Notes under the pieces: model-generated
What the model was told of the DNA's origin: nothing
Databases searched by the model: none
The model's input: the letters and a program-made list of their open reading frames with translations, nothing else
Shown here: positions 4,972-30,303 of the stretch, in pieces
How positions within the stretch are numbered: the stretch's first letter is position 1
Layout: each line of letters starts with the position of its first letter
Position numbers and translations under genes: made by a program
NCBI GenBank assembly: GCA_009917695.1
Contig: JAACJG010000009.1
Span: 186,001 to 250,000 of the forward strand
Source of the DNA: Candidatus Rifleibacterium amylolyticum
GTDB lineage: Bacteria; Muiribacteriota; Ozemobacteria; Ozemobacterales; Ozemobacteraceae
DNA: 64,000 nucleotides
Reading direction: 5' to 3'

Positions 4972-5392
4972 TTCCCTTTTGCCTTGTATCAAGGTCATTT
5001 TTCAGCAATTCCACCACTTTTGCGAGATCACAGTCAGGGCCGAACACCCTGTCATACCCCATTTTCAAAAATTTAGCCTCGACCTCAGCGAACGGGGTCT
5101 TGCCGACCACGAGGTTGCCGCCGACGTAGAGAATAATGTCTTCGAGACCTTTTTCGATGCACTTTTCGCGCAGGCCGGCGCAGTCGATTTCGCCATGGCC
5201 GTAGAGCGACGAAACCATGATGGCGCGGGCATCGGTTTCGATTGCAGCGTTGATGAACTCTTCCTGGCTGACCATGACGCCAAGGTTGGTGACCTTGAAG
5301 CCGGCTTCGCTGAAAAATGCTTCGAGAATCTTGTTGCCGACTGAATGGCAGTCGAAACCGATTACGCCTAATACGATGTTTACTGGTGTCAT
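4964..5392 (-). CDS. glmS: glutamate mutase sigma (B12-binding) subunit
   Basis: Small cobalamin-binding subunit of glutamate mutase, 142 aa. The B12-binding signature D-x-H-x-x-G is present as Asp14-Cys-His16-Ser-Val-Gly19; His16 would be the lower axial cobalt ligand. VSSLYGHGE about residues 60-68 and YVGGNLVVG about residues 89-97 match the rest of the Rossmann-type cobalamin fold. Its ATG overlaps the stop of the upstream GntR gene as ATGA, so regulator and enzyme are translationally linked. Cytoplasmic; partner is GlmE. Confidence 0.95.
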
Positions 5393-6489
5393 TGTTTTTT
5401 TCCTGGTCTGTTCAGCAAGTTTTTTATCAGTTCTTCGAGATACAGAAGCGAGCCGCGCTCGATCTGGTAAGCAAAATCAATCAGCTGACCGCCACGCTGT
5501 CGGAAAATGTTGATCGCATGCAACAACTCCGAAGGCAGTTGAACAGCGAAACCCGGCGGAACGATCAGTACATCTTTGTCGTCAATAAACTCTTCGATTG
5601 CATCCGTCTTTTCATCGAGATAGCAGACGCCGGAGAGATCGCCATTAAAGCCGGATTTTCCGACCCAGCCGCTGATAATCTGAAAAAAGCGCCGGCTCTG
5701 GTAGAGCACGCCGACCCGACTGTCGTTGTTGAGGCGGGCGAGTGCGATCAAAGTTGCCTGCGAAGGCGATACCACCACCGGAACAGCTTTGTCAGCCAGT
5801 TCAGGCACAAGACTGCGCAATTCTTCGATGTGGTTTGAGGTGGTCAATATCAGGTCGAACGGCGCCAGCACTGCTGCCGGATCTTTTGCTTCGCGCAACT
5901 CGGCAAAGAGAAAACGCGCGGTCGACATATGCGTCAAAGGCGCCAGCTGAGATTGGTATATACCAAGCGCTTCCGGATTGCAGTCGACAGCAGCTATGGC
6001 AAATTGTGAAAAGCGCTCTTCGCGGCGGCTGAGCAGGAGGTTGAAGATATCTGCCATTTCGCGCCAGGCAAAGCCAACGTCTTCAAGCTGCATGATGCAG
6101 TTTTCGATCAGCTGTGTAGCCAGGTCAAGCCGGCTGGTCGGCCGCTCAGCCTCTCTGACATTTGCTGTTTTACTGTCATTGTTGCGCGATTGAAGCTGGC
6201 GCTCTCGCTCCGACTCGTCCTGTTGTGAAACCGGCGAATCGGCCACCAGGCTGCCACGCCCGCGGGCGGCCACAATATAATGCTGCTGCACCAGCATTTC
6301 ATAAGCTTTTTTGATGGTGCCACGAGCGACTTTGAGCTGCAGTGCGAGCTCACGTTCGGCTGGCAGCTGTTGCCCCGGCGTCAGGCGGCCGGCGCGAATC
6401 AGCGCCGCAATCTGGCTGCTGATCTGCCTGTAAATAGGCTCCTGCCCATGATTATTGATTTTAACCGGCAACATTTTGCTGACCGCCAT
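5389..6489 (-). CDS. GntR-family transcriptional regulator with sensor-like C-terminal domain
   Basis: N-terminal winged-helix GntR domain at about residues 12-80 ([36 protein letters not shown]), a low-complexity linker at about 80-115, then a roughly 250-residue domain with alternating strand/helix pattern, possibly periplasmic-binding-protein or UTRA-like, that probably binds a pathway metabolite. First gene of the glm-mal operon and overlapping glmS by 4 nt, so it is the likely local regulator. A palindromic promoter-operator lies just upstream and a perfect 14-bp palindrome lies within the gene. The start is the ATG at 6489; a TTG directly before it and an ATG at 6474 are alternatives. 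Confidence 0.88.
5953..5966. promoter_or_regulatory. candidate intragenic GntR operator
   Basis: Perfect 14-bp palindrome TTGGTATATACCAA inside the gntR coding sequence (it encodes LGIYQ on the minus strand). Its half-site TTGGTATA is the same as in both arms of the operator over the gntR promoter. A TGGTATA-type dyad is typical of GntR/HutC-class regulators. Possible downstream auxiliary operator for looping or roadblock; function is inferred. Confidence 0.5.
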
Positions 6490-6490
6490 C

Positions 6491-6541
6491 AATTGGTATA
6501 GTCCAACAAAACCATTCTATACCAATTTTCAATAAAGTCAA
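6491..6541 (-). promoter_or_regulatory. promoter and inverted-repeat operator of the gntR-glm-mal operon
   Basis: On the minus strand, TTGACT (6536-6541) and TAGAAT (6514-6519) are separated by 16 bp and form a good sigma-70-type promoter. A perfect 11-bp inverted repeat, AATTGGTATAG at 6491-6501 and its complement at 6517-6527 with a 15-bp gap, covers the -10 box and the expected start of transcription. Each arm holds the half-site TTGGTATA. Binding here should block RNA polymerase, so autorepression relieved by a metabolite is the simplest model. Confidence 0.75.
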
Positions 6542-6560
6542 CCAAAATTGGCGATTGCGA

Positions 6561-7103
6561 TTAACCTGCTTCGCCAATGCTACACAGTGCAGGCGCGCAC
6601 GAGCAGGAGAAGAGTTCGCTCTGCCAGCGGGTGAATTTGTTTTGATAGCTTTGCGAGGCGTTGGCCGGGCTGGTTGAAGGCAGCACGACGAGTTGATAAC
6701 GCTCTATCAGATCGGGTGCGACTTTCAAGATGTGTCGTTTGAAAGAGCTGAAGGCTTTCTGGCCGTTGAAACAGATTTTGCGAACCTGCGGCAGCTTTTT
6801 GAGCAGGCCGGCGATATCGTTGGGGTGTTCGGAATCTTTTTCGATGTTCGAATCGAGACTGCCCTCACGCCGGCACTGCTGCAGCACATCCCACAATGAA
6901 ATGCGCAGTTTTTTAAGAATCTTCAGACGGTGTTCGTAATCAGTCGAATAATCTACACCGGCGCAGGCAAAAATGAATTGCCAGAACAGATTATGCGGGT
7001 GTGCATAGTATTGCCCGGCCCGCAGCGAGGCCTCGCCCGGCATCGATCCCAGCACCAGCACGACGGCATCTTCCACCACAACTGCTGCAAAACTCTTTTT
7101 CAT
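6561..7103 (-). CDS. DNA-deoxyinosine (hypoxanthine) glycosylase, UDG superfamily
   Basis: 180 aa. Removes deaminated adenine (hypoxanthine) from DNA, starting base-excision repair. Family-6 UDG-superfamily signatures are visible: LGSMPGEASLRAGQYYAHP at about residues 18-36 followed by NLFW, the central ICFNGQKAF, and the C-terminal LPSTSPANA motif. It forms a pair with the O-methyltransferase just upstream (9-nt gap). The C-terminal about 20 residues, with three Cys, look less conserved. The gntR promoter lies directly after its stop, so no space is left for a long terminator. Confidence 0.87.
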   Translation of the reverse strand: MKKSFAAVVVEDAVVLVLGSMPGEASLRAGQYYAHPHNLFWQFIFACAGVDYSTDYEHRLKILKKLRISLWDVLQQCRREGSLDSNIEKDSEHPNDIAGLLKKLPQVRKICFNGQKAFSSFKRHILKVAPDLIERYQLVVLPSTSPANASQSYQNKFTRWQSELFSCSCAPALCSIGEAG

Positions 7104-7112
7104 TCCAAACTC

Positions 7113-7778
7113 TTAGAGAACCACCGAGATAGAGAAGCCATCGTAGCCTTTAACTCCTACTGTCTGCAATGCAGTAGTCCGTAGAGATTTTTCTGCGGCA
7201 AGAGCTTTTAGAAAGTTTCTGACGCCGACAACCCGCTCTTCGTCTGTCTCCAAGTTGGCTACTTCGCCCTTTCTGACGACATTGTCAGCAACTATAACAG
7301 TTCCCTGATGCGACAGTCTGAGGCTCAAAGCAAGATAATCGACGTAACCGGGTTTGTCAGCATCGATAAACACCAGATCAAAGGGGTCGACAGACTTCTC
7401 GATGAGCGAAGTCAGCGCGGGTTTTGCGTCGGCATTGATTATCGTAACTCCGCTGCCGACACCGGCCAGATCAAAGTTTCTGCGGGCGACTTCAGCGTGC
7501 TTTGCTTCGTATTCAATCGTGACCAGCTTCCCATTATCTGCGAGTGCGCGGGCCAGCCAGATGCCGCTGTAGCCGCCGAGCGTTCCGATTTCAAGAATAC
7601 GCCCGGCCCGGCAACTCTGCGCCAGAATCTGCAAAAACATACCCTGACATGGCGACACGCTTATCGCCGGCAGTCCGGCCACGCGGCAATTTTCCTGCAC
7701 CTGCTGCATTACGCTGTCATCAAGACTGAAAAGACCGTTAAAATAATCGTCTACGCTGTTCCAGGTTGCCTGACTCAT
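7113..7778 (-). CDS. class I SAM-dependent O-methyltransferase (CCoAOMT-like)
   Basis: 221 aa from the ATG at 7778, which has AAAGGAAAG about 6 nt upstream; an in-frame upstream ATG would add 9 residues with no such site. Motif I is LEIGTLGGYSGIWLA, the metal-binding acidic motif is FDLVFIDADKPGYVDY, and the post-motif is GTVIVADNVVRKGEV. This is the family of caffeoyl-CoA and catechol O-methyltransferases, which methylate small hydroxylated compounds using a divalent metal. The bacterial substrate cannot be told from sequence. Likely cotranscribed with the downstream glycosylase. Confidence 0.88.
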   Translation of the reverse strand: MSQATWNSVDDYFNGLFSLDDSVMQQVQENCRVAGLPAISVSPCQGMFLQILAQSCRAGRILEIGTLGGYSGIWLARALADNGKLVTIEYEAKHAEVARRNFDLAGVGSGVTIINADAKPALTSLIEKSVDPFDLVFIDADKPGYVDYLALSLRLSHQGTVIVADNVVRKGEVANLETDEERVVGVRNFLKALAAEKSLRTTALQTVGVKGYDGFSISVVL

Positions 7779-7929
7779 GAACTTTCCTTTCGCGACATAC
7801 TTCATCTAAGCAACAGCAAATACAACATATTTGCACGGCAAAAGTCATTGCAATTTTTTTGGAACCTTAGAAAAAATCCGGCGGTCATTATTTATGAGAA
7901 CAAAAAAATATTGCATGGAGGTAAGCAAT

Positions 7930-8619
7930 ATGTTGAGAAGGAAATTGATAATCGGCTTTGGTGTTGTGTTGATAGCAGCGATGCTATTCTTTGCCATGCC
8001 AGTGCGAACAGCTGAATCTGGTGTAAACACAACAGACCAGGATGATTTTCTGAAGCCGAAAGAGGATCAGCCTGGCGATCCCCTCGAAAGTTTTCAGAGC
8101 CGCTTTGACAGTTTTATGAGGCAACCTTTTTTTCAAGATCCCAGTCTTAATAACTTGCGCGGTTTCGACCTGTTCAACCGCAACATAAACGAGCATTTTG
8201 AGCGCATATTCAAAAACATTGACATGTTTTCCGGCATGAATTTTCCGACATCATTACTCAGTAACTCTATGATGCAGGTTGACAAGGGAAAGGCTGAGAT
8301 CAAAGAAATTGATGACAAGCTTCTCGTCAAACTCGACTTGCCGGGACTTGACAAGAACTCCATAGACCTGAAGCTTAGCGATAACCGCTTGATCATCTCT
8401 TCCGAGCGTAAGCAAACCACTACCTCAAGTGACGACAGAATCCGGATATATCGCAATGAGATAAGTTATGGCAGCTTTTCACGGATAGTAGATCTTCCAC
8501 AGCCCGTGATCGAGGATAAGGTCGAAGCCAGCTATGAAAACGGCGTTCTAACCGTAATTGCGCCAATAAATAAAAACAAACCGGCCAAAGACCCTGGTCG
8601 AAAAATTGAGATCAGGTAA
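7930..8619 (+). CDS. exported Hsp20/alpha-crystallin family protein
   Basis: 229 aa. The start at 7930 is set by GGAGG 8 nt upstream. The N-terminus (MLRRK then a roughly 18-residue hydrophobic stretch ending FAMPVRTAES) is a Sec signal peptide or anchor, followed by an acidic Gln/Asp-rich linker and a Phe/Asn-rich segment. The alpha-crystallin domain spans roughly residues 115-220, with DLPGLDKNSIDLKL, ISYGSFSRIVDLP and SYENGVLTV. Small heat-shock proteins hold unfolding proteins without ATP; export would place this one in the periplasm, which is unusual. It heads a two-gene unit with a cytoplasmic paralogue 38 nt downstream. Confidence 0.9.
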   Translation: MLRRKLIIGFGVVLIAAMLFFAMPVRTAESGVNTTDQDDFLKPKEDQPGDPLESFQSRFDSFMRQPFFQDPSLNNLRGFDLFNRNINEHFERIFKNIDMFSGMNFPTSLLSNSMMQVDKGKAEIKEIDDKLLVKLDLPGLDKNSIDLKLSDNRLIISSERKQTTTSSDDRIRIYRNEISYGSFSRIVDLPQPVIEDKVEASYENGVLTVIAPINKNKPAKDPGRKIEIR

Positions 8620-8657
8620 TTACTGCGACAAACAATACTGGTTAAGGAGGTTAATTT

Positions 8658-9224
8658 ATGGACTGGAAAAAATTGGCACCCTGGAACTGGTTCAAGAAGG
8701 AAGAAGAAGAAGTAAAGATTCCAGTAAATAAGGGAGACAAACAGCTTGCCAGATATCGATCTAACCCGTTCTCGCAATTTCAGAACGAAATGAACAGGAT
8801 ATTCGACAATCTTTTGAATTCCTTTGCTACACCATCTCTGTTCTCGAATCTCAATGATCTCGGGAAAAATCTGTTTACCGTTTCAGAATGGCTAAGACCA
8901 AGTCTAGACGTCTCTGCGACAGAAAACAATTACCGCATAAGCGTAGAGCTTCCGGGTGTCGAGCCATCAGAAATACGGCTTGAATTACAGGACGATCAGC
9001 TGATCATAACCGGCGAGAAAAAGCAGGAAAAGGAGGTGAAGGAAGACCATTATTATCGCATCGAACGTTCCTATGGCAGTTTTCGTCGCGTATTGTCTCT
9101 ACCTGAAGATGCCGACAAAGACAAAATTGACGCTTCTTTCAAAAACGGCATCATGACAATAACGATAACACGTCTACAACTGCCACAGGCGAAAACAAGA
9201 CTCATCGAAGTCAAAGCATCCTGA
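8658..9224 (+). CDS. Hsp20/alpha-crystallin family small heat-shock protein
   Basis: 188 aa, with a strong AAGGAGG ribosome site. No signal peptide: the N-terminus is MDWKKLAPWNWFKKEEEEV. The crystallin domain covers about residues 80-188 with RPSLDVSATENNYRISVELPG, IERSYGSFRRVLSLP and SFKNGIMTITI. The C-terminal I-x-I/V-type anchor is weak. ATP-independent holdase in the cytoplasm, likely cotranscribed with the exported paralogue upstream and ended by the hairpin at 9241-9266. Confidence 0.93.
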   Translation: MDWKKLAPWNWFKKEEEEVKIPVNKGDKQLARYRSNPFSQFQNEMNRIFDNLLNSFATPSLFSNLNDLGKNLFTVSEWLRPSLDVSATENNYRISVELPGVEPSEIRLELQDDQLIITGEKKQEKEVKEDHYYRIERSYGSFRRVLSLPEDADKDKIDASFKNGIMTITITRLQLPQAKTRLIEVKAS

Positions 9225-9240
9225 TTCTATCCAAGGTTTC

Positions 9241-9266
9241 CGGCGGCTCAGCCGAGCCGCCTTTTT
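9241..9266 (+). terminator. rho-independent terminator of the Hsp20 pair
   Basis: GGCGGCTC (9242-9249), loop AGCC, perfect complement GAGCCGCC (9254-9261), then five T. Placed 17 nt after the Hsp20 stop. Confidence 0.93.
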
Positions 9267-9397
9267 ATGTTGCGCACAATTCAAATCTTTTGCAAACTTT
9301 GATACACTCTGGTATCTCAATTCCCATCACAACGCTGTCTGCTGGTAAATATTTCCAGATTATTTCAGATGATGACAGCGCGGGGACGAATGGCTAT
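9265..9397 (-). pseudogene. remnant of an Rpn/PD-(D/E)XK transposase-like gene
   Basis: A short minus-strand open stretch ending at the TAA at 9265-9267 encodes W..(L)PAD...M..EIPECIK. The intact Rpn-family gene at 10695-11627 encodes the same block (W....FSAD...METEIPECIK), and 21 bp around it (9298-9318 against about 11006-11026) are identical. No start codon or the rest of the gene is present, so this is probably a decayed fragment of a related element copy. Its placement upstream of the secreted gene at 9434 may reflect deletion between two copies. Confidence 0.5.
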
Positions 9398-9433
9398 AAT
9401 GGCGTTGTCGATTCAACCACAGAGAGGTAAATA

Positions 9434-10672
9434 ATGAAAATCGCCAAAGCTTTCGTGATCTTTTCAGCAATACTGCTGCTGGTTGCAGCACCCGCTTTTA
9501 CCGCTGAAACTGCGGATTCTAACTATGAGGCAGTTGTAAAAAAAGTGGCAGGCATGACCCACGACCAGCAGGCGCGCGAGCTCGCAAAAAAATACGATCT
9601 CGACATAGTCAACATCACCTGGGAAGACACCGCCCGTGACCTCGGCTCCTCAATGGGGCCCAACATAAGCGACATGACCATTCAGGTTCACCACGGCAGC
9701 AAAGAAGCGCGCCAGATGACCTGCATGCCGGTTATCAGATTTCCCAATTTCACCGACAAGACCGCTGATATTCCGCTCGGCAAGCTATATGCGCGCGTTG
9801 GCAACGAAAAAGGCAAAGAGCTCAAAACCATTCCACTCGGCGCCCTACTTGAAGACCCGCGGCCGCTGCTGAGCAACCCATCGTCATGGCCGGGCGAAGG
9901 CAACATGCTGCTGGCGCAGCGCGACTCGCACGTGCTGGTGTCGGCACAGGCCTGCTTTTTGCCCATTCCCAAGGGCGACGAAGCAACCTTCAATCCGGTC
10001 ATTTTCAATTACCAGTCTTACGTCGGCAATCCGGCGGTGCTGGCGATTCTGGTCACCCGCGAAGGCACCAGCATGACGATCATCGACAACCAGCGCGATT
10101 CAGTTCAGAACGGCGGCGCATGGGGCCAACGGCTTTTCTTCAACCTTAACGGGGAAAAAGCCTCGCTGACCGGCAAACGCGCCAGCGACGCTGCTGCTGC
10201 CGAATCCGCTACCACGCCCGACGCGTCTGACAAACCCGGCCGCCCGACCGCTCCGGCTGTCGGCAAAACCGGCGGCGACAACATGGTGATGCTGATCCAG
10301 GTGCCGTTGAAATTCAAGCCGCAGCCGAGAAGCGAAGCCAAGGGTATCGCTTTTGAAGACGACTTTCGAGTTGATCGCGAAAGCGTGTCAAACGTCGAGG
10401 AAGCAGTCATCGGCCACGGCGAAATCGAAGGCCCGTTCATCGAGATGGATGGTCAGGCGATCGAACGTGACGACCGTTACCCGATCCGCGTTACCGTGCA
10501 GTTCTACAAGGCCACCGATAACGGCGTCGTCAGTGAAAAAGACATCAAGGCGATCCGCGAACAGATCGACCGCGTTTATGCTGATGGCAGCTACGTCGGC
10601 TCACTCGTCGTTCCCGAAAATGAAAGCCTGCAACGCCCCACCGACTGGAAGCCAACAAAGATATCGTTCTGA
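9434..10672 (+). CDS. secreted protein of unknown function
   Basis: 412 aa with an N-terminal signal peptide (MKIAKAF, hydrophobic core, cleavage near PAFTA) and GAGAGG-type ribosome site. I recognise no domain. The chain has an alpha/beta-looking N-terminal half (residues about 30-240), an Ala/Thr/Pro-rich linker around 245-285 (ASDAAAAES, RPTAPAVG), and a C-terminal part (about 290-412) that includes paired charged strands. The linker suggests two exported domains. No neighbour clearly shares its operon. GC and codon use look native. Confidence 0.75.
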   Translation: MKIAKAFVIFSAILLLVAAPAFTAETADSNYEAVVKKVAGMTHDQQARELAKKYDLDIVNITWEDTARDLGSSMGPNISDMTIQVHHGSKEARQMTCMPVIRFPNFTDKTADIPLGKLYARVGNEKGKELKTIPLGALLEDPRPLLSNPSSWPGEGNMLLAQRDSHVLVSAQACFLPIPKGDEATFNPVIFNYQSYVGNPAVLAILVTREGTSMTIIDNQRDSVQNGGAWGQRLFFNLNGEKASLTGKRASDAAAAESATTPDASDKPGRPTAPAVGKTGGDNMVMLIQVPLKFKPQPRSEAKGIAFEDDFRVDRESVSNVEEAVIGHGEIEGPFIEMDGQAIERDDRYPIRVTVQFYKATDNGVVSEKDIKAIREQIDRVYADGSYVGSLVVPENESLQRPTDWKPTKISF

Positions 10673-10694
10673 AAATCGCCAATCAGAAAAATAA

Positions 10695-11627
10695 TTACAA
10701 ACCGGGGTCTGCACTGGCGATGATGTTCTGAAGTTCTGTTTCGTTAAGGCCAGTGGCCTGCACTATAACGTCGTTAGCAATACCAAGTCGAAGCATTCTA
10801 GCTGCAATCTCCAAGCGGCTCTCTTCTTTACCTTCTGCTTTACCTTCTGCTTTACCAATTTCGATGCCTTCTTTGAAGCGGGTATTCATTTCGAGGTTGT
10901 AGACGAATTTATCTTTCTCACGGGCTTCCATGAGAATACGCATACGCTCGTTCGCATTGATGCGCTTAAGCTCAGAAATGGCCATAACGATATTCTCCTC
11001 GTTTTTGATACACTCTGGTATCTCTGTCTCCATGATACCGTAATCAGCAGAAAATTTCATCACATGCAGCCATTTTTCCAGCCTCGTCATCTCCTTGCGC
11101 GGCTTGGCATCACGAAACTTGGTCAGGTCGATATAATGCAAAGCTAACGTGTCTTTTAGAATGATACTGCTGTCACGGTTACAGAATTCAAAAACTTCAT
11201 GCACCCGGTTCGAATCAGGAAACAGATCGAAATTCATGATCGAAATGCTCGTAGCCGAATTCAAAGCGGCGTAATTATCTCCAGCATGAGCCTGATCAGA
11301 ATACAGGCGGGCTACATAAAGAACCGTTCTTGGCACATAAGAACTGTGTTGACAGGCCTGCGCCTCGATATTGAACCAGCGCCCCATTTTGTCACGCGCT
11401 TTAACATCTACAATCGTCAGCTTTTCATCAAAGAAGCGCCGCAGATTGAATGGGTTTAGATACCTCAAGGCTTCAATCTGACAATCATTTTCAAGCTGCA
11501 GCACTGCATTAATAAGGCTGATAGTGATTCGCTCGTGTCCCTTCCTCCCAAATATCCATTGAAAGGCAAAGTCGTTGAGCATCGAATAGATTTTTAATTC
11601 TTTATTCAAGGTAATTGTGTCAGACAT
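10695..11627 (-). CDS. Rpn-family recombination-promoting nuclease / putative transposase
   Basis: 310 aa from the ATG at 11627, which has GGAGG about 9 nt upstream. It matches the Rpn/PD-(D/E)XK nuclease family: N-terminal LNDFAFQWIFGRKGHE, then LTIVDVKARDKMGRWFNIEAQ holding the catalytic Asp and the E-x-Q equivalent of (D/E)xK, and the typical C-terminal helical tail with IGKAEGKAEGKEE repeats. Characterised homologues nick or cut DNA and promote RecA-independent recombination. Often multicopy in genomes; a decayed relative is visible at 9265-9397. No terminal inverted repeats were seen around it. Confidence 0.88.
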   Translation of the reverse strand: MSDTITLNKELKIYSMLNDFAFQWIFGRKGHERITISLINAVLQLENDCQIEALRYLNPFNLRRFFDEKLTIVDVKARDKMGRWFNIEAQACQHSSYVPRTVLYVARLYSDQAHAGDNYAALNSATSISIMNFDLFPDSNRVHEVFEFCNRDSSIILKDTLALHYIDLTKFRDAKPRKEMTRLEKWLHVMKFSADYGIMETEIPECIKNEENIVMAISELKRINANERMRILMEAREKDKFVYNLEMNTRFKEGIEIGKAEGKAEGKEESRLEIAARMLRLGIANDVIVQATGLNETELQNIIASADPGL

Positions 11628-11780
11628 GATCGCAGAACCTCCGGCTGAAAAATTTCGGAGTGTTCGACGACACATCGTATTTAATCACTCCGATAGTTAA
11701 TCAGCCGAAAAACGAAATGGGGAAAAAATAATTGATCATGGCTCAGGTTGTTACATTTTTATCTATACTAAGCAGCACTC

Positions 11781-11789
11781 TGGTATAAT
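11781..11789 (+). promoter_or_regulatory. extended -10 promoter of the 37-aa basic protein
   Basis: TGG followed by TATAAT (11784-11789) is a consensus extended -10 element; no clear -35 at the usual distance. The expected transcript would start near 11796, leaving a leader of about 70 nt before the small gene at 11864. Confidence 0.55.
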
Positions 11790-11863
11790 AAAGCTGGCAG
11801 CCGTAAACTTTTACGGATGCGATGCCTTTATGGCGAAGGATATTGAGAGTGAAAGGAGCATAT

Positions 11864-11977
11864 ATGGGAGACAAAGGCGGCAAGAAAGACAAAGACAAGG
11901 CAAAAAAACAAACCACCAAAAAGCATGACGACAAGGTCAAGCATGCTGAAGAAAAACAGCCAAAACGCAAAACCTGA
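11864..11977 (+). CDS. 37-aa lysine-rich small protein
   Basis: Short gene opening MGDKGGKKDKDKAKK and ending KQPKRKT, about 40% Lys/Arg with no hydrophobic segment. An AGGAG 7 nt before the ATG and an extended -10 promoter upstream support it. Very small MGDK-type basic proteins of unknown role occur in many bacteria; this fits that class by composition only. After the stop there is an inverted repeat (GCCCCGC near 11990, GCGGGGC near 12016) without a T-run, so termination is uncertain. Confidence 0.7.
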   Translation: MGDKGGKKDKDKAKKQTTKKHDDKVKHAEEKQPKRKT

Positions 11978-12096
11978 TAATTAGAGATTGCCCCGCTCAG
12001 ATAGTTAAAAATTTGTGCGGGGCCGTTCGAAAAAACTGGTTGCAACTGCGTTGTTAGAAAAACTCTAGCCCGCAGTTCGCGCCAGTTTTTTTACGC

Positions 12097-12483
12097 TCAG
12101 TTCCAGGCCTGCTTGATGACTATTTCGGTCATTGGATAATGTTTGCGGCTCAAGGTGAAGATATGACCACCGGTCTCTGCTGCCTTTGCTGCCAGAATCG
12201 CATCGTTGAAGTCGATGCCGTGGCTGGGGTTCCACTTTCTGAACAGCCGACCGGCAGTATCTATTATGGCCTGATCGACAGGGGCGGTTTTGAACTGCGA
12301 TAAAAACAGTTCTGTGGCCTGCTCTTCTTCGGGCCGCATGAAAAAAAGTATCTCGCCTCTCTGCAAAGCTCCGACCCACAGCTCATATTCGCCAGAACCG
12401 GCCAGCTTTCTCAAAAAATTCGTCGCCTTCTTTTCGCCACGCAGGTGCCATATCAATATGTCAGAATCGATGTAAGCTCTCAT
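12097..12483 (-). CDS. PIN-domain ribonuclease toxin (VapC type)
   Basis: 128 aa. PIN-domain acidic residues are visible: Asp6 and Asp8 in MRAYIDSDILIWHL, a Glu near residue 44 in LQRGEIL, and the late pair in HGIDFNDAILAA. VapC-like toxins are Mg-dependent RNases that cut tRNA or rRNA. Its start overlaps the upstream small gene by 4 nt, the standard antitoxin-toxin arrangement. Located in a patch of accessory genes. Confidence 0.88.
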   Translation of the reverse strand: MRAYIDSDILIWHLRGEKKATNFLRKLAGSGEYELWVGALQRGEILFFMRPEEEQATELFLSQFKTAPVDQAIIDTAGRLFRKWNPSHGIDFNDAILAAKAAETGGHIFTLSRKHYPMTEIVIKQAWN

Positions 12484-12710
12484 CGCTGATGCCTTCGCAT
12501 TGATTTATTTACCTCGCCACGGATCCGCGCGACGGTTTTGGCGGCACTTTCATCGCGCTGCCAGGCGCCACTGGTATCGGAAAAAACATCGGTTTTTTCC
12601 TGTTCGTTGGTGCGCTTCCAGAGAAGGTTGATCGCGCGCCAGCTCGACGCAAGCATCAAAGTCGATATCATCACAGACTGACTGCGCCGAGCTTTTGACA
12701 GTTCGCGCAA
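12480..12710 (-). CDS. putative antitoxin partner of the PIN toxin
   Basis: Up to 76 aa. The C-terminal part (SGAWQRDESAAKTVARIRGE) resembles the toxin-binding tail of antitoxins paired with PIN toxins. The N-terminus is not typical: no ribbon-helix-helix or AbrB start is visible, the first start codon is a TTG at 12710, and an ATG at 12668 is the alternative; neither has a convincing ribosome site. Another frame over 12600-12690 reads DDIDFDACVELARD, so a frameshift near 12600 is possible. Identity rests mainly on the overlap with the toxin. Confidence 0.55.
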   Translation of the reverse strand: MRELSKARRSQSVMISTLMLASSWRAINLLWKRTNEQEKTDVFSDTSGAWQRDESAAKTVARIRGEVNKSMRRHQR

Positions 12711-12723
12711 AAACTGTCACAAT
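12695..12723 (+). promoter_or_regulatory. promoter-like sequence with 8-bp palindrome
   Basis: TTGACA at 12695-12700 and CACAAT at 12718-12723 with 17-bp spacing would serve the gene at 12754. The -35 box is embedded in a perfect inverted repeat, TGACAGTT (12696-12703) and AACTGTCA (12712-12719), 8-bp gap, which sits at the head of the divergent antitoxin gene. It could be the operator of the toxin-antitoxin pair. Confidence 0.45.
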
Positions 12724-12753
12724 AATGCAGAGAGAGATCTGGGGAGAGAAGCC

Positions 12754-13539
12754 ATGCGACCTGCCAGTTTAGGGTACTGGTGCTGCCTTTTGCTGCTGCT
12801 TGCCGGCATCGAAGCTGTTACGGCTGCGATTTCCGATGACGGGAAGCGGGCAATCGAGCAACTGCGTCAGCGACACCAGAGCGCTGAAGCTGAGCCTGCC
12901 CGGCCAGGAATGCGCGACCTCGCCGAGCAGCTGCGCCAGAAGCACAAAAATAACGAAAAACCCGTCACTCCCCAGGCTTCCAAGACGCCGGCCGCCACAC
13001 CGGTCAAGACTGTCGAACCACTGCAGCCCACAGCAGAGGCTGAACCTTCGACTGTCGCAGCAGAAGAACAGACTGTTTCATCACCGGCCGCCACGGAAGC
13101 ACCAGTTTACGGTACCTGCGGCGACGGTGACCTGCCGGCCGAAGAATACGACCATATCCCCTACCCTGCCGCCCCGGAAAAAAGGGCGCAATCAGCAGAA
13201 ACCTTCCAGCAGAAACAGGCTACCAGCTCAGACGACGCAGGCTTTTCCGGCTTTTTCATAGCGGTTATGGCAGTCATAACTCTCTTTACCTTCGGTTCGG
13301 CCTTTGCCGGTTCCGGTGTTCGCGGCTCGCCTCCGGGAGCATTGCAGGCCGCCGGCACACTCATGCTTCTCGGCGCAATTGTAGTAGGCGGCATAACTGT
13401 GATCAAATTCTGGCCAATCCTGCTGCTGCTCTTCTTCGGCTACGTCTTCAGCCAGTCGAGCCGATCATCGAGCGACAGCAGCTGCTGCGGCTGTGGCTGC
13501 GGCCTCATCATCTTACTTCTCTTGCTTGGGATTCTGTGA
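12754..13539 (+). CDS. membrane protein with Pro/Ala-rich exported region and Ser/Cys-rich tail
   Basis: 261 aa; a GGGGAG ribosome site precedes the ATG. Signal sequence at about residues 8-25, then two copies of an EQLRQ(R/K)H motif (near 35 and 58), a disordered Pro/Thr/Ala/Glu-rich stretch to about residue 150, and two or three hydrophobic segments (about 168-190, 205-232 and the C-terminal end). The tail holds SSDSSCCGCGCG directly before a final hydrophobic helix. No known family recognised. The Cys cluster might bind metal or be acylated; that is speculation. Confidence 0.75.
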   Translation: MRPASLGYWCCLLLLLAGIEAVTAAISDDGKRAIEQLRQRHQSAEAEPARPGMRDLAEQLRQKHKNNEKPVTPQASKTPAATPVKTVEPLQPTAEAEPSTVAAEEQTVSSPAATEAPVYGTCGDGDLPAEEYDHIPYPAAPEKRAQSAETFQQKQATSSDDAGFSGFFIAVMAVITLFTFGSAFAGSGVRGSPPGALQAAGTLMLLGAIVVGGITVIKFWPILLLLFFGYVFSQSSRSSSDSSCCGCGCGLIILLLLLGIL

Positions 13540-23465: not shown

Positions 23466-26400
23466 ATGGAGCGAACGAGAGTGCTGATTATAACTTCCAG
23501 TCAGAAGAGAACCGGTTTTATCTGGATTCTGCTGCTGGCTGTGTTGTTATTGGCACCAATGGTATGGCTCAATAATCTGATCGTCGAACTCCGCGAAAAG
23601 GACGAGACTTATCTCGACATGCAGGCCCGCGAGCGCCTGCTGAACGAAATGGAGAGCTTTCAAGAGCGACTGAAAGCCGAAAAACATATTGAGACTGCTC
23701 TTGAAGACATGCGCAGAGAGTTCGGTATTAACATCGATAATGACAATTACCGGAACCTGACCTTTTCTTATGCTACCGACCCGATGCTCATTCAAAGCAA
23801 TTTTCCGGCAAGCGCCAGTGAATATCTCAGGCAAAAATATCATATTACACCGCTGCTTACATTTGCTGTCGATTGCGATATGCAGAATTTTTATTCACAC
23901 TATTCGCAAAATTTATTCTCGGATGTGAAAGAACGCCTGGCCTTTGAAAATGCGGCCGCTTTCTGGATGGTTTTCTCACAACATGACGTTGTTAATGAAC
24001 TACCAACAACGCCTGATTTGAACGCAAAATTTGATTTGTACAAAAACAGTGGCAACCGCGGCTATGAAAATGCCCAACAGAAATTCAACGATCTTTTACA
24101 ACGTCATATTTCTGCTTTTGCAACTCTTCCAACAGCAAACAGCATCTGTCGGGTGTTCTTTTCCAACCGATTCGGAGCCCAGCGGTCATTTCAGATTATC
24201 AACCAGATAACCAGACCACGAGGCCTGCGCATAAGCATGCTCGGCTGCTATTATTTTGTTATCAACAGTTGCGACATTTCACCTTCGATGATACTAAAAA
24301 CCTCTCTTAACAGCTTAGATCAGACAATAGAAAGATCATTCATAAAAAGAGGCATCGAGCAACCTCAATTTGTCTACACCAGCGACTGTCTTGCCTATTA
24401 TTCAGCATTTCCTGCACATTATTCGACACTTATCGAAGACTATGCAATCAAAAACCTGCTGGCTCGCAACCATTTGCGCAAATTCGTCAATCAGCACGTT
24501 CTCTGTGTCAGAATTGACAGCAAACACCTCAAGTCACGATTTGCTGCAGCAGAAAAAATCAGCGGAGCTATGGTAAGAATGCTTCTGCTGTTGTTCTTTG
24601 CCCTGCTGATCAGGTCATACATGCGTGAACTTGAATACGGAATGCGACTTGCAAAAAAACTGCGCATAGCAGTAGCAATCATCGTTATGCTGCCAGTAAT
24701 CGGAGTTTTTCTGGTCAGCCGCCAGTATGAAGCTAACAGCGAAAAGATGAGCCTGATCAAATGCCAGACAAAAATAAAACGCCAGATCAATTTTCTGGCA
24801 AAACTTATCAACGACACAGACGCACGAACTGTGTTGATGTTGCAGGAAGTCAAAAAATTTCTGATTTACCGCCATTATAATATCGATAACGAAAAAATCA
24901 GAAAACTGCTGAACGAAGGGCATTTCCGCAAATTAACCGCAGGCGTGCTTGAGGGATCGCTGACCAGAGACGGCAACGCCATCATGACAGCGCGCAGAAA
25001 AAACACCGACAGCTCTACAGTGCGAAGCGGTCTATACCAGATTCTGCTCGACCTTGGAGCCATTGATCAAAATTCTGAAGCTGTTAAAAAGATCCACAAA
25101 CAGTATACCCTCCTGATCGGGCTGGCCGGCGCTCTAACAAATCTATTCAGTGAACCAGAAGCGCTTGCCCGCGAAGGTCTGCTCAACAAGCATATTTTGT
25201 CGGCTTCGGCGCTGATGAGATCTGTTCATCATTTTATCGCACACCCACGAACCCCGCAGACAATAGACGCCATTGCGCTGTTCATGGCCGATGACATCAA
25301 CATTGTAAAAAAGCTCTACGCGCAACTGTCGCAACTTTCCTTACATTTGTTCCGAGAATACGACGAAAACTGCCAGATCGATTATGCTCTGGCAATGCGA
25401 AGTCCCAGCTCAGTACGCACCTATCAGGCACCAAATTTTTCGGCCCCTTCCAACCGAATGGCGCAGCTGGCTGCAAAAGCGATGAACAATAAAACTTCAG
25501 GTAGTATTATTAGAAGATCTCCTGGACAGATCAACATCGACAGCTGGACAATTTCTGATCTCAATCCGGTGATCATTCTCGCCAGGGCCACTGTTTCCAG
25601 AACTTCATCTGCACATCTGATGTTCGTCATCCTCCCATGGATGCTGCTGCTCTACTCCATTCTGGCAGTTACGCTCATTTCAGATGTTCTCGCCGACATA
25701 TTTCTGGCACCGGTCAAAGCGCTGCTCGCGTTTGTCAGGCAACTTCGGCAGAATGACCTGCACGTTAAGGTTTTGATTACTTCTGGCGGCGAGTTCGAAG
25801 AGCTTGGCAATTCATTCAACCAGATGGTAGAAGGCCTCAGACAGCGCGAAAAAATGAGGCGCTTTGTCTCTGACAAGCTGGTTGCAAGTCTTGAAAAGCA
25901 AGGCGAATCGCAGCAGCCAGGCCGCGCTTCCTTAAGCGTGTTGAGTTCCGATATTCGCGGATTTACTGCTTTGAGCGAACAGTTTCCGCCTGAAGAAATC
26001 GTGAGTCTTCTCAACGATTACTTTTCCTCAATGGAAGAAGCACTTCAGATGTATGGCGGCTCGATCGAGAAAATAGTAGGGGATGCAATTACAGCGGCTT
26101 TTTATGACGATGCCGGTCAGGAATGTCACGCGACAAGGGCCTGCAAGGCCGCGCGTGAGATGAAAGCGAAGCTTAGCGTTTTTAACCGCGAGCGACAGGA
26201 AAGAAAAAAATTTACCATCAGCAATGGAATCGGCATCGCCAGCGGAGAGGCCGTGCTCGGCTTTGCCGCCGGCAAGTCAGGTCGTCGTGAGTTCGTTCTT
26301 ATCGGCGAGGTAACTCATCGCGCCGAAAAACTTGAGACACTGACGCGCTGGGCAAAAAGCACCGGCATTTTTGTTGACCGGGTAACCGCCGATCTTTTGT

Positions 26401-26474
26401 CTGAAGAAGTCACGGAAGTTTATGTGAACAACGAAGAAGAGCAGACCGTCTGCCTGGAGCTGCGGCATGACTGA
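23466..26474 (+). CDS. membrane class III nucleotide cyclase, metal-binding (C1-like) half
   Basis: 1002 aa. Hydrophobic segments at about 18-38, 369-383, 400-419 and 718-740 would frame two large extracytoplasmic sensor regions; a HAMP domain (about 741-795) leads to a class III cyclase domain (about 820-985). Both metal Asps are present, Asp829 (SSDIRGFT) and Asp873 (IVGDAI), with Lys869. The residues that stabilise the transition state are not: the usual V-N-L-A-A-R-L is VTHRAEKL, giving His951 for Asn and Lys955 for Arg, and the adenine-site Asp is Glu942. Its stop overlaps the next cyclase gene by 8 nt. A homodimer should be poorly active or inactive. Confidence 0.88.
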   Translation: MERTRVLIITSSQKRTGFIWILLLAVLLLAPMVWLNNLIVELREKDETYLDMQARERLLNEMESFQERLKAEKHIETALEDMRREFGINIDNDNYRNLTFSYATDPMLIQSNFPASASEYLRQKYHITPLLTFAVDCDMQNFYSHYSQNLFSDVKERLAFENAAAFWMVFSQHDVVNELPTTPDLNAKFDLYKNSGNRGYENAQQKFNDLLQRHISAFATLPTANSICRVFFSNRFGAQRSFQIINQITRPRGLRISMLGCYYFVINSCDISPSMILKTSLNSLDQTIERSFIKRGIEQPQFVYTSDCLAYYSAFPAHYSTLIEDYAIKNLLARNHLRKFVNQHVLCVRIDSKHLKSRFAAAEKISGAMVRMLLLLFFALLIRSYMRELEYGMRLAKKLRIAVAIIVMLPVIGVFLVSRQYEANSEKMSLIKCQTKIKRQINFLAKLINDTDARTVLMLQEVKKFLIYRHYNIDNEKIRKLLNEGHFRKLTAGVLEGSLTRDGNAIMTARRKNTDSSTVRSGLYQILLDLGAIDQNSEAVKKIHKQYTLLIGLAGALTNLFSEPEALAREGLLNKHILSASALMRSVHHFIAHPRTPQTIDAIALFMADDINIVKKLYAQLSQLSLHLFREYDENCQIDYALAMRSPSSVRTYQAPNFSAPSNRMAQLAAKAMNNKTSGSIIRRSPGQINIDSWTISDLNPVIILARATVSRTSSAHLMFVILPWMLLLYSILAVTLISDVLADIFLAPVKALLAFVRQLRQNDLHVKVLITSGGEFEELGNSFNQMVEGLRQREKMRRFVSDKLVASLEKQGESQQPGRASLSVLSSDIRGFTALSEQFPPEEIVSLLNDYFSSMEEALQMYGGSIEKIVGDAITAAFYDDAGQECHATRACKAAREMKAKLSVFNRERQERKKFTISNGIGIASGEAVLGFAAGKSGRREFVLIGEVTHRAEKLETLTRWAKSTGIFVDRVTADLLSEEVTEVYVNNEEEQTVCLELRHD

Positions 26475-29325
26475 AGCCAGAAAAACATTCACCAGCAACA
26501 ACCGCTCACATAGTAGCAGGCTGCTGGCAATCTGGCTTTTTCTGATTGTCTTGCCGGCACTGGTTCTTATGGTTTCTTTCGATCACATTCTCAAAGAGAG
26601 CGAAGGATATATACTAGACCGCCTGAAAATAAGAATGCTGCAGGAGATGAATGATTTTCGCAGCAAACTCAGCTTTGGACACATGCTCGAATTGAAAATG
26701 CGGGATCAATCTGACGAATTTGCCCGAGACAGTTCTGATGCCAGCAGCTTGGCAGCAATTGTCAGTGATAGAGTACAGATTCCTGTAAGCGCGGTTTTTT
26801 ATTTAAATCCAGAAACAGAAGACCTCTCGTATTATCTGGCAGAATCTGTCAAGCCGACATTTTCAATGGTTTCACATACCATGCTGCGCAACTACCTGCA
26901 AAGCCTGATAAAAAAGAATAGAGCTTCACCAGATGACAATGATTACAGCAGATGGAAAGGCTCATCAAAATTCTCAAGAAGTATTAAATATTTTCGCAAT
27001 CTGTTCAACGCTGCCGGGGAAATTGAACTTCAGCTTAATCGAGTGGTACGGTCGTATTCTGGCAATGCTGAACTTGGACGATTGCTTTTTTTTGCGATTC
27101 CGCTTGCAGATTCAGGTTCCGCCATAGTTGTTTTCAGAGAAATTGACATTTCTCTGCAACAGCTCGCCAGCCATGCAAAAACCAGCAACCTGTTTTCTGA
27201 TCTGCAACGAGGTTTTGCAATGTCGACAGAAGGCAGACAGGCTGTTTATATGCTTGGCAATGAAATGCAACATTTCAACCGCAAGCAAGATGGCACAATA
27301 ATATTAAGTGCAGTAGCGCCTGAAGAATTTCTTCTGCGCCGCGTCTCCAAAGGCACGCTGGTACCGATCATGCTGACAGAAACTCTTGAAAATCTGCCCC
27401 TGATACAGATTACCGCACCCATGTCATCGCAGCAGCACCCCCTGCGAAAAATCACCGGGCAAGCAGAAAAAGCGGCTCTTCTGCTGGTGCTGCTCTCTTC
27501 TGTAGTTCTACTGCGTATTTATCTGTTCGGCTACGGTAGCGGCCTCAGAATTCGCAGCCGTCTGTTGATCTGCGTTATTGGTGCTTCGATTTTGCCCTTC
27601 TCGACCTTCCTTGCCGGGTTAGCCTACCACGAGCATTTTGCCGGAGAACTCGAAAAGTCAGAGATAGACCAATATCTCAATCTACAACAGGACTTCCTCA
27701 ATAAATCGCTCAATGCCAGAATAGATTTTGAAGAACGCAAAATGACCGAACTCGCAGAAATCCTGGGAAGACTGAGCTGGGATGAAGCCGATCAGTATCT
27801 TGCTCGCTGGATAAAAAACAGTGTCGCAGCGCTCATTCTGTACAGCCAGGATGAGCGCGAAAAAACCTACACCACTGATCCCAACGAAAAGCTAAACGCT
27901 ACTGAGCTCAGCATGAAAACTATCAGCTTCATGTCGATCAGAAATGCTATCAGACCTCTTTCTGAAACGCCACAAGGCTCTGATGGAAGTGTCGGCGCCA
28001 TGAATATTAGAATCAAAGGGCTCGGGATAATCCTGGAAAACGTCGGGCGACTACAGGAGACCATTTCTGATAAAGCAGTCACACTGTTTTCAGCGTTTCC
28101 TGTCTTTGCTGAGAACAGGCGTTTCGACAAACCCAGGTCAATTATTTTAATCAAATATTACACTGCTGACATTATTCATGACTTTTTAAAAACCTATCCT
28201 GAATTCCTTAAAAACGAAATCAAGGGCAGATATCGCGTAAGAAGCTGTTTTATTCCAATCAGACAAGCATTCAGACTTCCACCAGAACACGATGCCATCT
28301 GTAGCTCTGGTTTTTCGCCTGCCAGATGGTCACATCTTGCCCGCCAAGTTCTGAACAGTCGATCAACTGCATTCTGGTCAGATGAAAATTCTGCGGCTGT
28401 TGCCGGTTTTCATAACCGCCTGCAATGCATAATAATTCACACCTCAGAACGTTCCGACACCACTGCTTCGCCCGTTGGCGCAGTATTTTTGCCAGCGCTG
28501 CTCTATTTTCTGCTGATGGTGGCAACCACTGTCGTATTTATTGCAAAAATTCTCATAGATCCAATAGATATGCTCAAGCAGGGGGCCGACCTGGTTGCTG
28601 CTGGCAAATACCAGCAGCATATTGAATTGCAATCAGGCGATGAATTCGAACCCCTCGCCAGTTCTTTTAATGAAATGGCTGCCGGCCTCTATCAGCGAGA
28701 ACTTCTCACAAGCTATGTTTCGCAGGATGTTATCGATGAGGTCAGCAGCGACATAACTCTTTTACCAGGCGGAGAGCGAGTTGAAGCCAGTGTTGTATTT
28801 TGTTCTTTAAGCGGGTTTAAGGAGCTAAGCCTGTCATCGAGCCCTGAAGAAATAGTAACGAAGCTTGGTCGGCTCATTGAAATAGCCGATAATGCTGCTG
28901 TCAAACATGGTGGCGTCATGGACAAACTGATTGAAGATACTGTCATGCTTGTGTTCAGACAGCGCAGCAGCGACAAGAATTATGCAATTGCGGCCTGCCG
29001 GGCTGCACTCGATATCAATCGGGCTTTTGCAGACACAGACAAATCGGTCAAGGTTGCGACAGGCATAGCTTCAGGCTCAGCGGTTTCCGGCAAGATCGGC
29101 TCAAAAACAGGCAAACTCGACTTCACACTGATCGGCAACCCGGTCAATCTGGCCGCACGCCTCAAGGTACAGGCACACAAAGCAGACAACACCGGAATCA
29201 TCGTCTGTCCGGCCACGATCAGACTACTTAAAGGTCAGGCACGTCTGCGTTTTATCGAACGTACAGAAATAAAGGGAAGGTCGCGAACCTTCCCTCTTTA
29301 TGAGCTTTTAGAGCTGCGAGACTGA
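26467..29325 (+). CDS. membrane class III nucleotide cyclase, nucleotide-binding (C2-like) half
   Basis: 952 aa with the same plan as its upstream neighbour: hydrophobic segments at about 17-36, 336-354, 366-387 and 676-697, two outside regions, HAMP (about 698-750) and a cyclase domain (about 770-945). Here the first metal Asp is Ser780 (VFCSLSGF), while Lys820, Asp824, the adenine-contacting Asp885 (KLDFTLIG), Asn894 and Arg898 (VNLAARL) are all kept. It therefore lacks what the neighbour has and has what the neighbour lacks. The two probably arose by duplication and act together; adenylate rather than guanylate is suggested by Lys820/Asp885. Confidence 0.88.
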   Translation: MTEARKTFTSNNRSHSSRLLAIWLFLIVLPALVLMVSFDHILKESEGYILDRLKIRMLQEMNDFRSKLSFGHMLELKMRDQSDEFARDSSDASSLAAIVSDRVQIPVSAVFYLNPETEDLSYYLAESVKPTFSMVSHTMLRNYLQSLIKKNRASPDDNDYSRWKGSSKFSRSIKYFRNLFNAAGEIELQLNRVVRSYSGNAELGRLLFFAIPLADSGSAIVVFREIDISLQQLASHAKTSNLFSDLQRGFAMSTEGRQAVYMLGNEMQHFNRKQDGTIILSAVAPEEFLLRRVSKGTLVPIMLTETLENLPLIQITAPMSSQQHPLRKITGQAEKAALLLVLLSSVVLLRIYLFGYGSGLRIRSRLLICVIGASILPFSTFLAGLAYHEHFAGELEKSEIDQYLNLQQDFLNKSLNARIDFEERKMTELAEILGRLSWDEADQYLARWIKNSVAALILYSQDEREKTYTTDPNEKLNATELSMKTISFMSIRNAIRPLSETPQGSDGSVGAMNIRIKGLGIILENVGRLQETISDKAVTLFSAFPVFAENRRFDKPRSIILIKYYTADIIHDFLKTYPEFLKNEIKGRYRVRSCFIPIRQAFRLPPEHDAICSSGFSPARWSHLARQVLNSRSTAFWSDENSAAVAGFHNRLQCIIIHTSERSDTTASPVGAVFLPALLYFLLMVATTVVFIAKILIDPIDMLKQGADLVAAGKYQQHIELQSGDEFEPLASSFNEMAAGLYQRELLTSYVSQDVIDEVSSDITLLPGGERVEASVVFCSLSGFKELSLSSSPEEIVTKLGRLIEIADNAAVKHGGVMDKLIEDTVMLVFRQRSSDKNYAIAACRAALDINRAFADTDKSVKVATGIASGSAVSGKIGSKTGKLDFTLIGNPVNLAARLKVQAHKADNTGIIVCPATIRLLKGQARLRFIERTEIKGRSRTFPLYELLELRD

Positions 29326-29328
29326 GCT

Positions 29329-30303
29329 TTACCAGCCCAGTATATAGGCAAAAATCAGCGGTGCAACTATTGTCGCGTCTGACTCGACGATGTATTTAGG
29401 TGTATTGATGTCGAGCTTGCCCCAGGTGATTTTTTCGTTGGGAACCGCACCAGAGTATGAGCCATAACTGGTGGTCGAATCAGAAATCTGGCAGAAATAG
29501 CTCCAGAACGGAATCTTTTCCATTTCGAGATCCTGATAGAGCATGGGCACGACGCAGATCGGGAAATCACCGGCAATACCGCCGCCAATCTGGAAAAATC
29601 CAACGCCTTTACCAGATGAATTCTTGATATACCAGTCTGCCAGCCACATCATGTATTCAATGCCGCTCTTCATGGTCGAAGGCTTGAGATCACCCTTGAT
29701 GCAGTAAGAAGCGAAGATGTTGCCCATGGTCGAGTCTTCCCAGCCGGGTACGATGATTGGCAGGTTCTTCTGGGCGGCTGCCAGCATCCAGCTGTTCTTC
29801 GGATCGATCTCGTAATACTGCTCGAGCACGCCCGAAAGCAGCATCTTGTACATATACTCGTGCGGGAAATAACGTTCGCCCTTGCTTTCAGCGTCCTTCC
29901 AGATTTTGAAGATATGCGCCTGCAGGCGTCTGAAAGCTTCTTCTTCGGGGATGCAGGTGTCGGTAACCCGGTTCAGGCCCTTTTCCAGCAGATCCCACTC
30001 ATCTTTAGGAGTCAGGTCGCGATAATGTGGAACGCGGCGATAATGGTTGTGAGCGACCAGGTTCATGATGTCTTCTTCGAGGTTAGCGCCAGTGCACGAA
30101 ATGATAGCGATCTTGTCCTGCCTGATCATTTCGGCAAGCGATTTGCCGAGCTCGGCCGTACTCATGGCGCCTGCCAGCGTTACCATCATTTTTCCGCCTT
30201 CTTTGAGATGCAGGCAATAGCCTTTGGCAGCGTCGACCAGGGCGGCCGAGTTGAAATGCAGGTAATGTTCTTCGATGAACGAGGTTATCGTGCTATGAGT
30301 CAT
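29329..30303 (-). CDS. deoxyhypusine-synthase family protein
   Basis: 324 aa, ribosome site AGGAGA. Matches the DHS fold: MVTLAGAMSTAELGKSLAEMI, IISCTGANLEEDI, and the catalytic-lysine motif TWGKLD with Lys296, the residue that carries the aminobutyl intermediate in true DHS. QIGGGIAGDFPICVVPM and DSTTSYGSYSGA also fit. Bacteria lack eIF5A, so the acceptor is something else; bacterial homologues have been linked to homospermidine-type polyamine synthesis. The NAD-dependent transfer from spermidine is inferred. Single gene, convergent with the cyclase pair. Confidence 0.88.
   Translation of the reverse strand: MTHSTITSFIEEHYLHFNSAALVDAAKGYCLHLKEGGKMMVTLAGAMSTAELGKSLAEMIRQDKIAIISCTGANLEEDIMNLVAHNHYRRVPHYRDLTPKDEWDLLEKGLNRVTDTCIPEEEAFRRLQAHIFKIWKDAESKGERYFPHEYMYKMLLSGVLEQYYEIDPKNSWMLAAAQKNLPIIVPGWEDSTMGNIFASYCIKGDLKPSTMKSGIEYMMWLADWYIKNSSGKGVGFFQIGGGIAGDFPICVVPMLYQDLEMEKIPFWSYFCQISDSTTSYGSYSGAVPNEKITWGKLDINTPKYIVESDATIVAPLIFAYILGW

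Follow-up and report, generated by a model that had tools for sequence, protein, structure and literature searches.

Two overlapping genes of Candidatus Rifleibacterium amylolyticum each encode a membrane receptor that ends in a class III cyclase domain, and the question raised by this locus is whether each protein is a cyclase in its own right or whether the two form one enzyme. The window is the whole stretch of DNA analysed, 64,000 nucleotides of contig JAACJG010000009.1, and the positions of the pair are counted from its first letter. In mammalian adenylate cyclases the C1 domain supplies the metal-binding aspartates and the C2 domain the substrate and transition-state residues, giving one active site and one pseudo-site (PMC4174876). 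Genes 1 and 2 very probably encode a heterodimeric membrane adenylate cyclase of this C1/C2 type with one composite site, its activity and product being inferred.

Both genes are class III nucleotide cyclases, with Guanylate_cyc (PF00211) scores of 46.1 and 52.3 bits against a cut-off of 21.9; PF00672 and PF00211 lie above the Pfam cut-offs in both chains, and the six catalytic positions can be aligned in each. The genes and their domains are located as follows.

23466 to 26474, forward strand: gene 1, the A-type (C1-like) subunit, 1002 aa (ORF call, orthologue alignment)
25692 to 25844, forward strand: HAMP domain of gene 1, aa 743-793 (PF00672, E 3.4e-7)
25929 to 26420, forward strand: catalytic domain of gene 1, aa 822-985 (PF00211, E 5.3e-12)
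26467 to 26474, forward strand: overlap of genes 1 and 2, 8 bases (ORF coordinates)
26467 to 29325, forward strand: gene 2, the B-type (C2-like) subunit, 952 aa (ORF call, AlphaFold model, alignment)
28537 to 28689, forward strand: HAMP domain of gene 2, aa 691-741 (PF00672, E 1.7e-8)
28783 to 29283, forward strand: catalytic domain of gene 2, aa 773-939 (PF00211, E 7.1e-14)

Gene 1 runs in the order TM1 (aa ~17-35), sensor 1, TM2 (~364-382), TM3 (~399-417), sensor 2, TM4 (~720-738), HAMP and class III catalytic domain, and gene 2 likewise contains four TM segments, two sensor domains, a HAMP and a class III catalytic domain. The identical four-helix, two-sensor, HAMP layout that the original prediction had proposed for both genes is borne out by the Pfam HAMP matches and by four strong hydrophobic segments in each. 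In the AlphaFold model of gene 2 (pLDDT 73.5), the helices are separated by two alpha/beta domains on the extracytoplasmic side; no sensor fold was assigned to the pair by Pfam, and the fold search gave only cyclase matches among the matches listed. AAA and TPR domains of the sAC type were not found by Pfam in the window pair, which therefore does not belong to that type, and the two six-helix membrane domains of the mammalian type in one polypeptide are also absent, with four TM segments per chain and two genes. Directly adjoining the cyclase pair, at 29329 to 30303 of the window on the reverse strand, is a deoxyhypusine synthase-family gene (PF01916), here in a bacterium.

The catalytic residues were called by alignment against P. 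aeruginosa CyaB (PDB 3r5g), CyaC-type 2w01 and 5o5k, giving D829, K869, D873, E942, H951 and K955 for gene 1 and S780, K820, D824, D885, N894 and R898 for gene 2. The kept and lost residues lie at the following positions.

25950 to 25952, forward strand: Asp829 of gene 1, first metal-binding Asp, kept (alignment; invariant, 102/102 A domains)
26082 to 26084, forward strand: Asp873 of gene 1, second metal-binding Asp, kept (alignment; 102/102 A domains)
26289 to 26330, forward strand: lost substrate and transition-state residues of gene 1, Glu942 (for Asp), His951 (for Asn) and Lys955 (for Arg) (alignment)
28804 to 28806, forward strand: Ser780 of gene 2, replacing the first metal-binding Asp (alignment; Ala, Ser or Val in orthologues)
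28924 to 28926, forward strand: Lys820 of gene 2, adenine-binding Lys, kept (102/102 B domains)
29119 to 29160, forward strand: Asp885 (adenine) with Asn894 and Arg898 (ribose/triphosphate, transition state) of gene 2, kept (alignment)

Neither chain has all six residues, so neither fits the homodimeric bacterial class III cyclases; the residue split of C1 and C2, with the metal aspartates on one side, Lys/Asp/Asn/Arg on the other and one complete site, is met by the pair, and the purine-specifying Lys820 and Asp885 in the composite site point to an adenylate rather than a guanylate cyclase. The two open reading frames, their overlap and every residue call of the original prediction were reproduced, and its claim that neither homodimer would have a full site while a heterodimer would have exactly one is supported by the complementary loss in this residue pattern. 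Some activity can persist in noncanonical class III cyclases whose Asn/Arg are altered, so that gene 1 by itself is perhaps not fully dead, and the second metal aspartate, D824, is still present in gene 2. On these grounds one might imagine that gene 1 (or gene 2) is active as a homodimer with noncanonical residues and that its neighbour is an unrelated paralogue, since some class III cyclases are generally known to function with altered residues, but the strict A plus B pairing in every unit, the 28 A-B fusions and the congruence of the trees described below leave this explanation very little room.

The source genome, a 5.39-Mb assembly with close named relatives among the Candidatus Riflebacteria genomes, contains 61 PF00211 class III cyclase domains; according to a review, a bacterial strain can have as many as 30 class III isozymes (PMC9552081). 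Wherever two of these domains are adjacent or fused as a unit, one has both metal aspartates without the Asn/Arg pair (A type) and the other has Lys, Asn and Arg without a complete metal pair (B type). Thirty-six of the 61 sit in 18 A/B units, comprising 13 adjacent gene pairs and 5 fused proteins (~2000 residues), and every one of the 18 adjacent or fused units combines a complementary A and B. Chance pairing of A and B domains was ruled out, as random dealing of 18 A and 18 B labels gives 18 mixed units with P = 2.9e-5. The likeness to the mammalian C1/C2 split that had been proposed thus stands, and the window pair is indeed made of two genes, but the single-polypeptide form, attributed to the mammalian enzymes, also occurs at five loci of the source genome. 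Most A/B gene pairs of this genome overlap by 1-59 bases, and the 8-base overlap of genes 1 and 2 is likely to mean translational coupling. Among the unpaired domains, 23 of 25 keep all six positions and the other two are degenerate in another way than the A and B types; the 23 full-site domains vary at the adenine Asp position, as known cyclases do.

Across the phylum, with pairs and fusions taken from related genomes, 102 non-identical units were gathered (74 pairs and 28 fusions, in 52 clusters below 60% identity), with the adjacent or fused domains of the source genome (G000) and of G002, G005 and G010 drawn from complete match lists. Both metal aspartates are present in all 102 A domains and in none of the 102 B domains, whereas Lys, Asn and Arg are present in all 102 B domains, with the adenine Asp in 90 of them and Ser, Glu or Thr in the other 12. 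The A domains keep Asn in seven cases, Arg in five and both in one. All six residues were read in a single A domain, that of the fused L092:8030-14044 (G002, a relative), and in no B domain; accordingly, 101 of the 102 units combine an A without the Asn/Arg pair and a B without the full metal pair. Four B domains were gapped at the first Asp and were read by eye, as Ser in L032, L069 and L150 and as Ala in L158. Three B domains keep the first metal Asp, the second then being Glu; these (L028:2096-5146, L084:4345-7389 and L178:3563-6619) form an orthologous group in which the second metal Asp is changed to Glu and the first is not lost.

The orthologues of the window pair, ranging from 71/67% to about 30% identity, all keep the pattern. 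The expectation that homologous pairs would do so was met by those in G001, G002, G005, G009, G016, G018, G019 and G021, and the search for an orthologue of the pair with all six residues in one protein, which would have spoken against the proposal, found none. The A gene of G001 is broken in the assembly, and its second part, in another frame, also lacks the Asn/Arg positions. The A/B pairs were found in two families of the phylum, that of the window and one other (G023, G030), and 28 of the 102 units are single polypeptides, in every one of which A precedes B, just as C1 precedes C2. One or both proteins could in principle be pseudoenzymes, the degenerate domain being regulatory or a scaffold without ATP cyclisation, or one of them decaying, and each domain by itself does lack residues thought essential; decay would not, however, leave the exact complementary set in 102/102 units. 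Other A positions, such as Phe14, Thr15, Glu19 and Glu140 (CyaB-fragment numbering), are also invariant (81/81), and the subunits are conserved over their whole length between species at 52-71% and lower, which also speaks against decay, so we give this explanation hardly any credence.

The heterodimer reading is also reflected in the history of the domains. In a tree of 80 rows, the A domains form one clade (96/85) and the B domains one group (99/91), while the unpaired Riflebacteria domains group with CyaC, CyaB and the mycobacterial cyclase; a root among these ordinary cyclases would imply a single A/B split. The possibility that the active-site residues themselves drive the tree was ruled out, as masking those columns altered the grouping little, with one change for A and two for B. 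A and B share ancestry over their whole length, their receptor parts being aligned as homologues by hhalign (99.8%, 697 columns), which supports the duplication followed by division of labour that had been suggested for the two genes. The distances among A partners and among B partners are correlated (r = 0.83, with a maximum of 0.16 in 2000 permutations), and within the source genome the correlation is r = 0.69 against a permutation maximum of 0.42, indicating that the partners co-evolve and that the units were copied as units. The best reading is that the A/B arrangement arose once, was amplified many times and was fused in some loci.

Each A subunit may join several B subunits, forming a mixed network in place of 18 insulated enzymes; this is a variant of the heterodimer explanation and leaves composite-site catalysis unaffected. 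The same genome has 18 A and 18 B domains that go back to one origin, and 13 of its units are separate chains, so mixing is conceivable, but the gene overlap, the co-inheritance of partners within the genome and the fused units favour cognate pairing without being decisive, and we regard free combination as unlikely while keeping it in consideration.

The fused A rows fall into a single clade (100/99), as do the fused B rows (100/100), suggesting that the fused A-B proteins probably descend from one fusion event that was later copied, as far as their phylogeny can tell. Two single genes of the source genome, L160 (1018 aa) and L161 (968 aa), are built as four-helix receptors like the A/B subunits, have complete sites and branch next to the A/B split, so that, judged from their sequences, they look like surviving homodimeric relatives. 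With these two genes, the 13 pairs and the 5 fusions, the homodimer, the split heterodimer and the fused pseudoheterodimer would all be found in one genome. It seems quite likely that the phylum invented the C1/C2 cyclase by itself, amplified it (~18 per genome) and repeated the fusion of the animal type, with all stages surviving in one genome. In another family (G026), two adjacent dCache cyclases, L152:2791-5025 and 4991-7120 (both on the reverse strand), also show complementary loss, with Asn changed to Ser in one and the first metal Asp to Lys in the other; their position in the tree is among ordinary cyclases, and they possibly represent an independent, younger origin of the arrangement.

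For the structure, a natural fused relative, L026, was modelled over residues 805-2004 (A catalytic domain to C terminus) with 18 fused homologues, giving an AlphaFold model with a pLDDT of 79 and a moderate pTM of 0.55. Human AC5 and AC9 head the PDB matches of this model at a TM-score of 0.27-0.29 (by query length), while all single-domain cyclases reach 0.14-0.16 over about half the superposed length of AC5/AC9. As one catalytic domain accounts for ~0.14, AC5 and AC9 must superpose either on both domains or on one domain plus as many membrane residues; the simpler reading of the model, made without active-site distances, is that both catalytic domains of fused L026 would superpose on AC5/AC9. 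In the profile search, the alpha chains of soluble guanylyl cyclase (sGC) fall on the A half, and the beta chains of sGC fall on the B half together with mammalian C2 domains.

In the mechanism proposed here, subunits A and B would be co-translated and would pair through TM4, the HAMP domains and the coiled-coil segments. This would bring the catalytic domains together head to tail, with only one of the two composite sites complete. In that site, A would supply Asp829 and Asp873 for the two metals and B would supply Lys820/Asp885 for the adenine and Asn894/Arg898 for the ribose and triphosphate, and cAMP would be made from ATP, while the second composite site would be a dead pseudo-site, formally like the mammalian forskolin pocket. 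The four extracytoplasmic sensor domains, two per chain, would feed the single active site, and the heterodimer could thereby respond to two different sets of signals at once, an ability that a homodimer lacks; two receptor halves acting on one active site is the likely, though inferred, use of the pair. Dimerisation, the inactivity of single chains (the "obligate" of the original prediction), the cAMP product, the sensing role and the restriction to cognate partners are all inferred, without biochemical data. Another cyclic nucleotide (cGMP, cCMP or cUMP) might be the product of the heterodimer, as class III enzymes with other specificity are known and 12 of the 102 B domains have Ser, Glu or Thr in place of the adenine Asp; the chance of this appears small, since the window B has the adenylate pair Lys820/Asp885, Lys being universal among B domains and Asp nearly so, and the source genome has 19 cNMP-binding-domain matches, which are possible receptors for the cyclase product.

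The same four-helix, two-sensor, HAMP type of receptor was also observed with a SpoIIE/PP2C-type phosphatase output, in tandem genes of ~1000 residues, at L188 (G000:C7:12500-32400), L189, L191 (G000:C3:376000-391500), L192, L193 and L196. In L191, YSGG/FTGG occurs in 4310-7255 and 10122-13022 and the YTDG motif in 1435-4323 and 7231-10125, and perhaps, from these motifs alone, such partners follow the same active/degenerate pairing as the cyclases with a different output.

A 2022 review describes the class III cyclases of bacteria as homodimers and states that no fused dimeric form is known from them (PMC9552081), and no bacterial heterodimeric class III cyclase was found in the open-access literature, subscription papers not being covered. 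The series from full-site homodimers through complementary subunits to fusions that one genome appears to hold is a testable evolutionary one, the many natural heterodimeric receptor cyclases, possibly mutually insulated, offer material for studies of partner specificity, and paired cyclases are potential parts for orthogonal cAMP control.

Among known systems, mammalian AC1-AC9 share with the A/B units the metal Asp from the first domain, the Lys/Asp/Asn/Arg from the second and one active and one pseudo site, and the fused bacterial forms share their domain order and match AC5/AC9 in the fold search. The bacterial half, however, has 4 TM segments, two extracytoplasmic domains and a HAMP where the mammalian half has 6 TM segments; the window pair is two genes and the fused bacterial forms are 2 x 4 TM, and the bacterial units show no sign of G-protein input and have an apparently separate, bacterial origin. 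Animal soluble guanylyl cyclase is similar in having two separate chains with one composite site, its alpha chain corresponding to A and its beta chain to B by profile, but it has H-NOX haem sensing and GTP-specific residues and is cytosolic and eukaryotic. The chytrid rhodopsin-cyclases (RGC/NeoR) are likewise membrane receptor cyclase heterodimers, reported to function only as heterodimers (PMC8815786), but they have a rhodopsin sensor and are guanylyl cyclases of fungi. ADCY10 and the sAC-like bacterial tandem proteins also have C1 and C2 in a single chain, but sAC is cytosolic, with AAA ATPase and TPR; another family of the phylum has one such sAC-like protein (L154:1490-6082, reverse strand, G027; 1530 aa), in which an AAA ATPase domain comes after the two cyclase domains and whose architecture differs from that of the A/B units. 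Tandem cyclases of the sAC kind do therefore occur in bacteria. The bacterial HAMP-type homodimeric receptor cyclases share the TM receptor, the HAMP and the C-terminal class III domain, and the full-site singles L160 and L161 share the 4-TM layout with the A/B subunits, but the homodimers have two full sites, whereas in the window pair the loss is split over two genes. The mechanism belongs to a known kind, and what is new is its bacterial, two-gene and 8-helix fused versions, together with their amplification.
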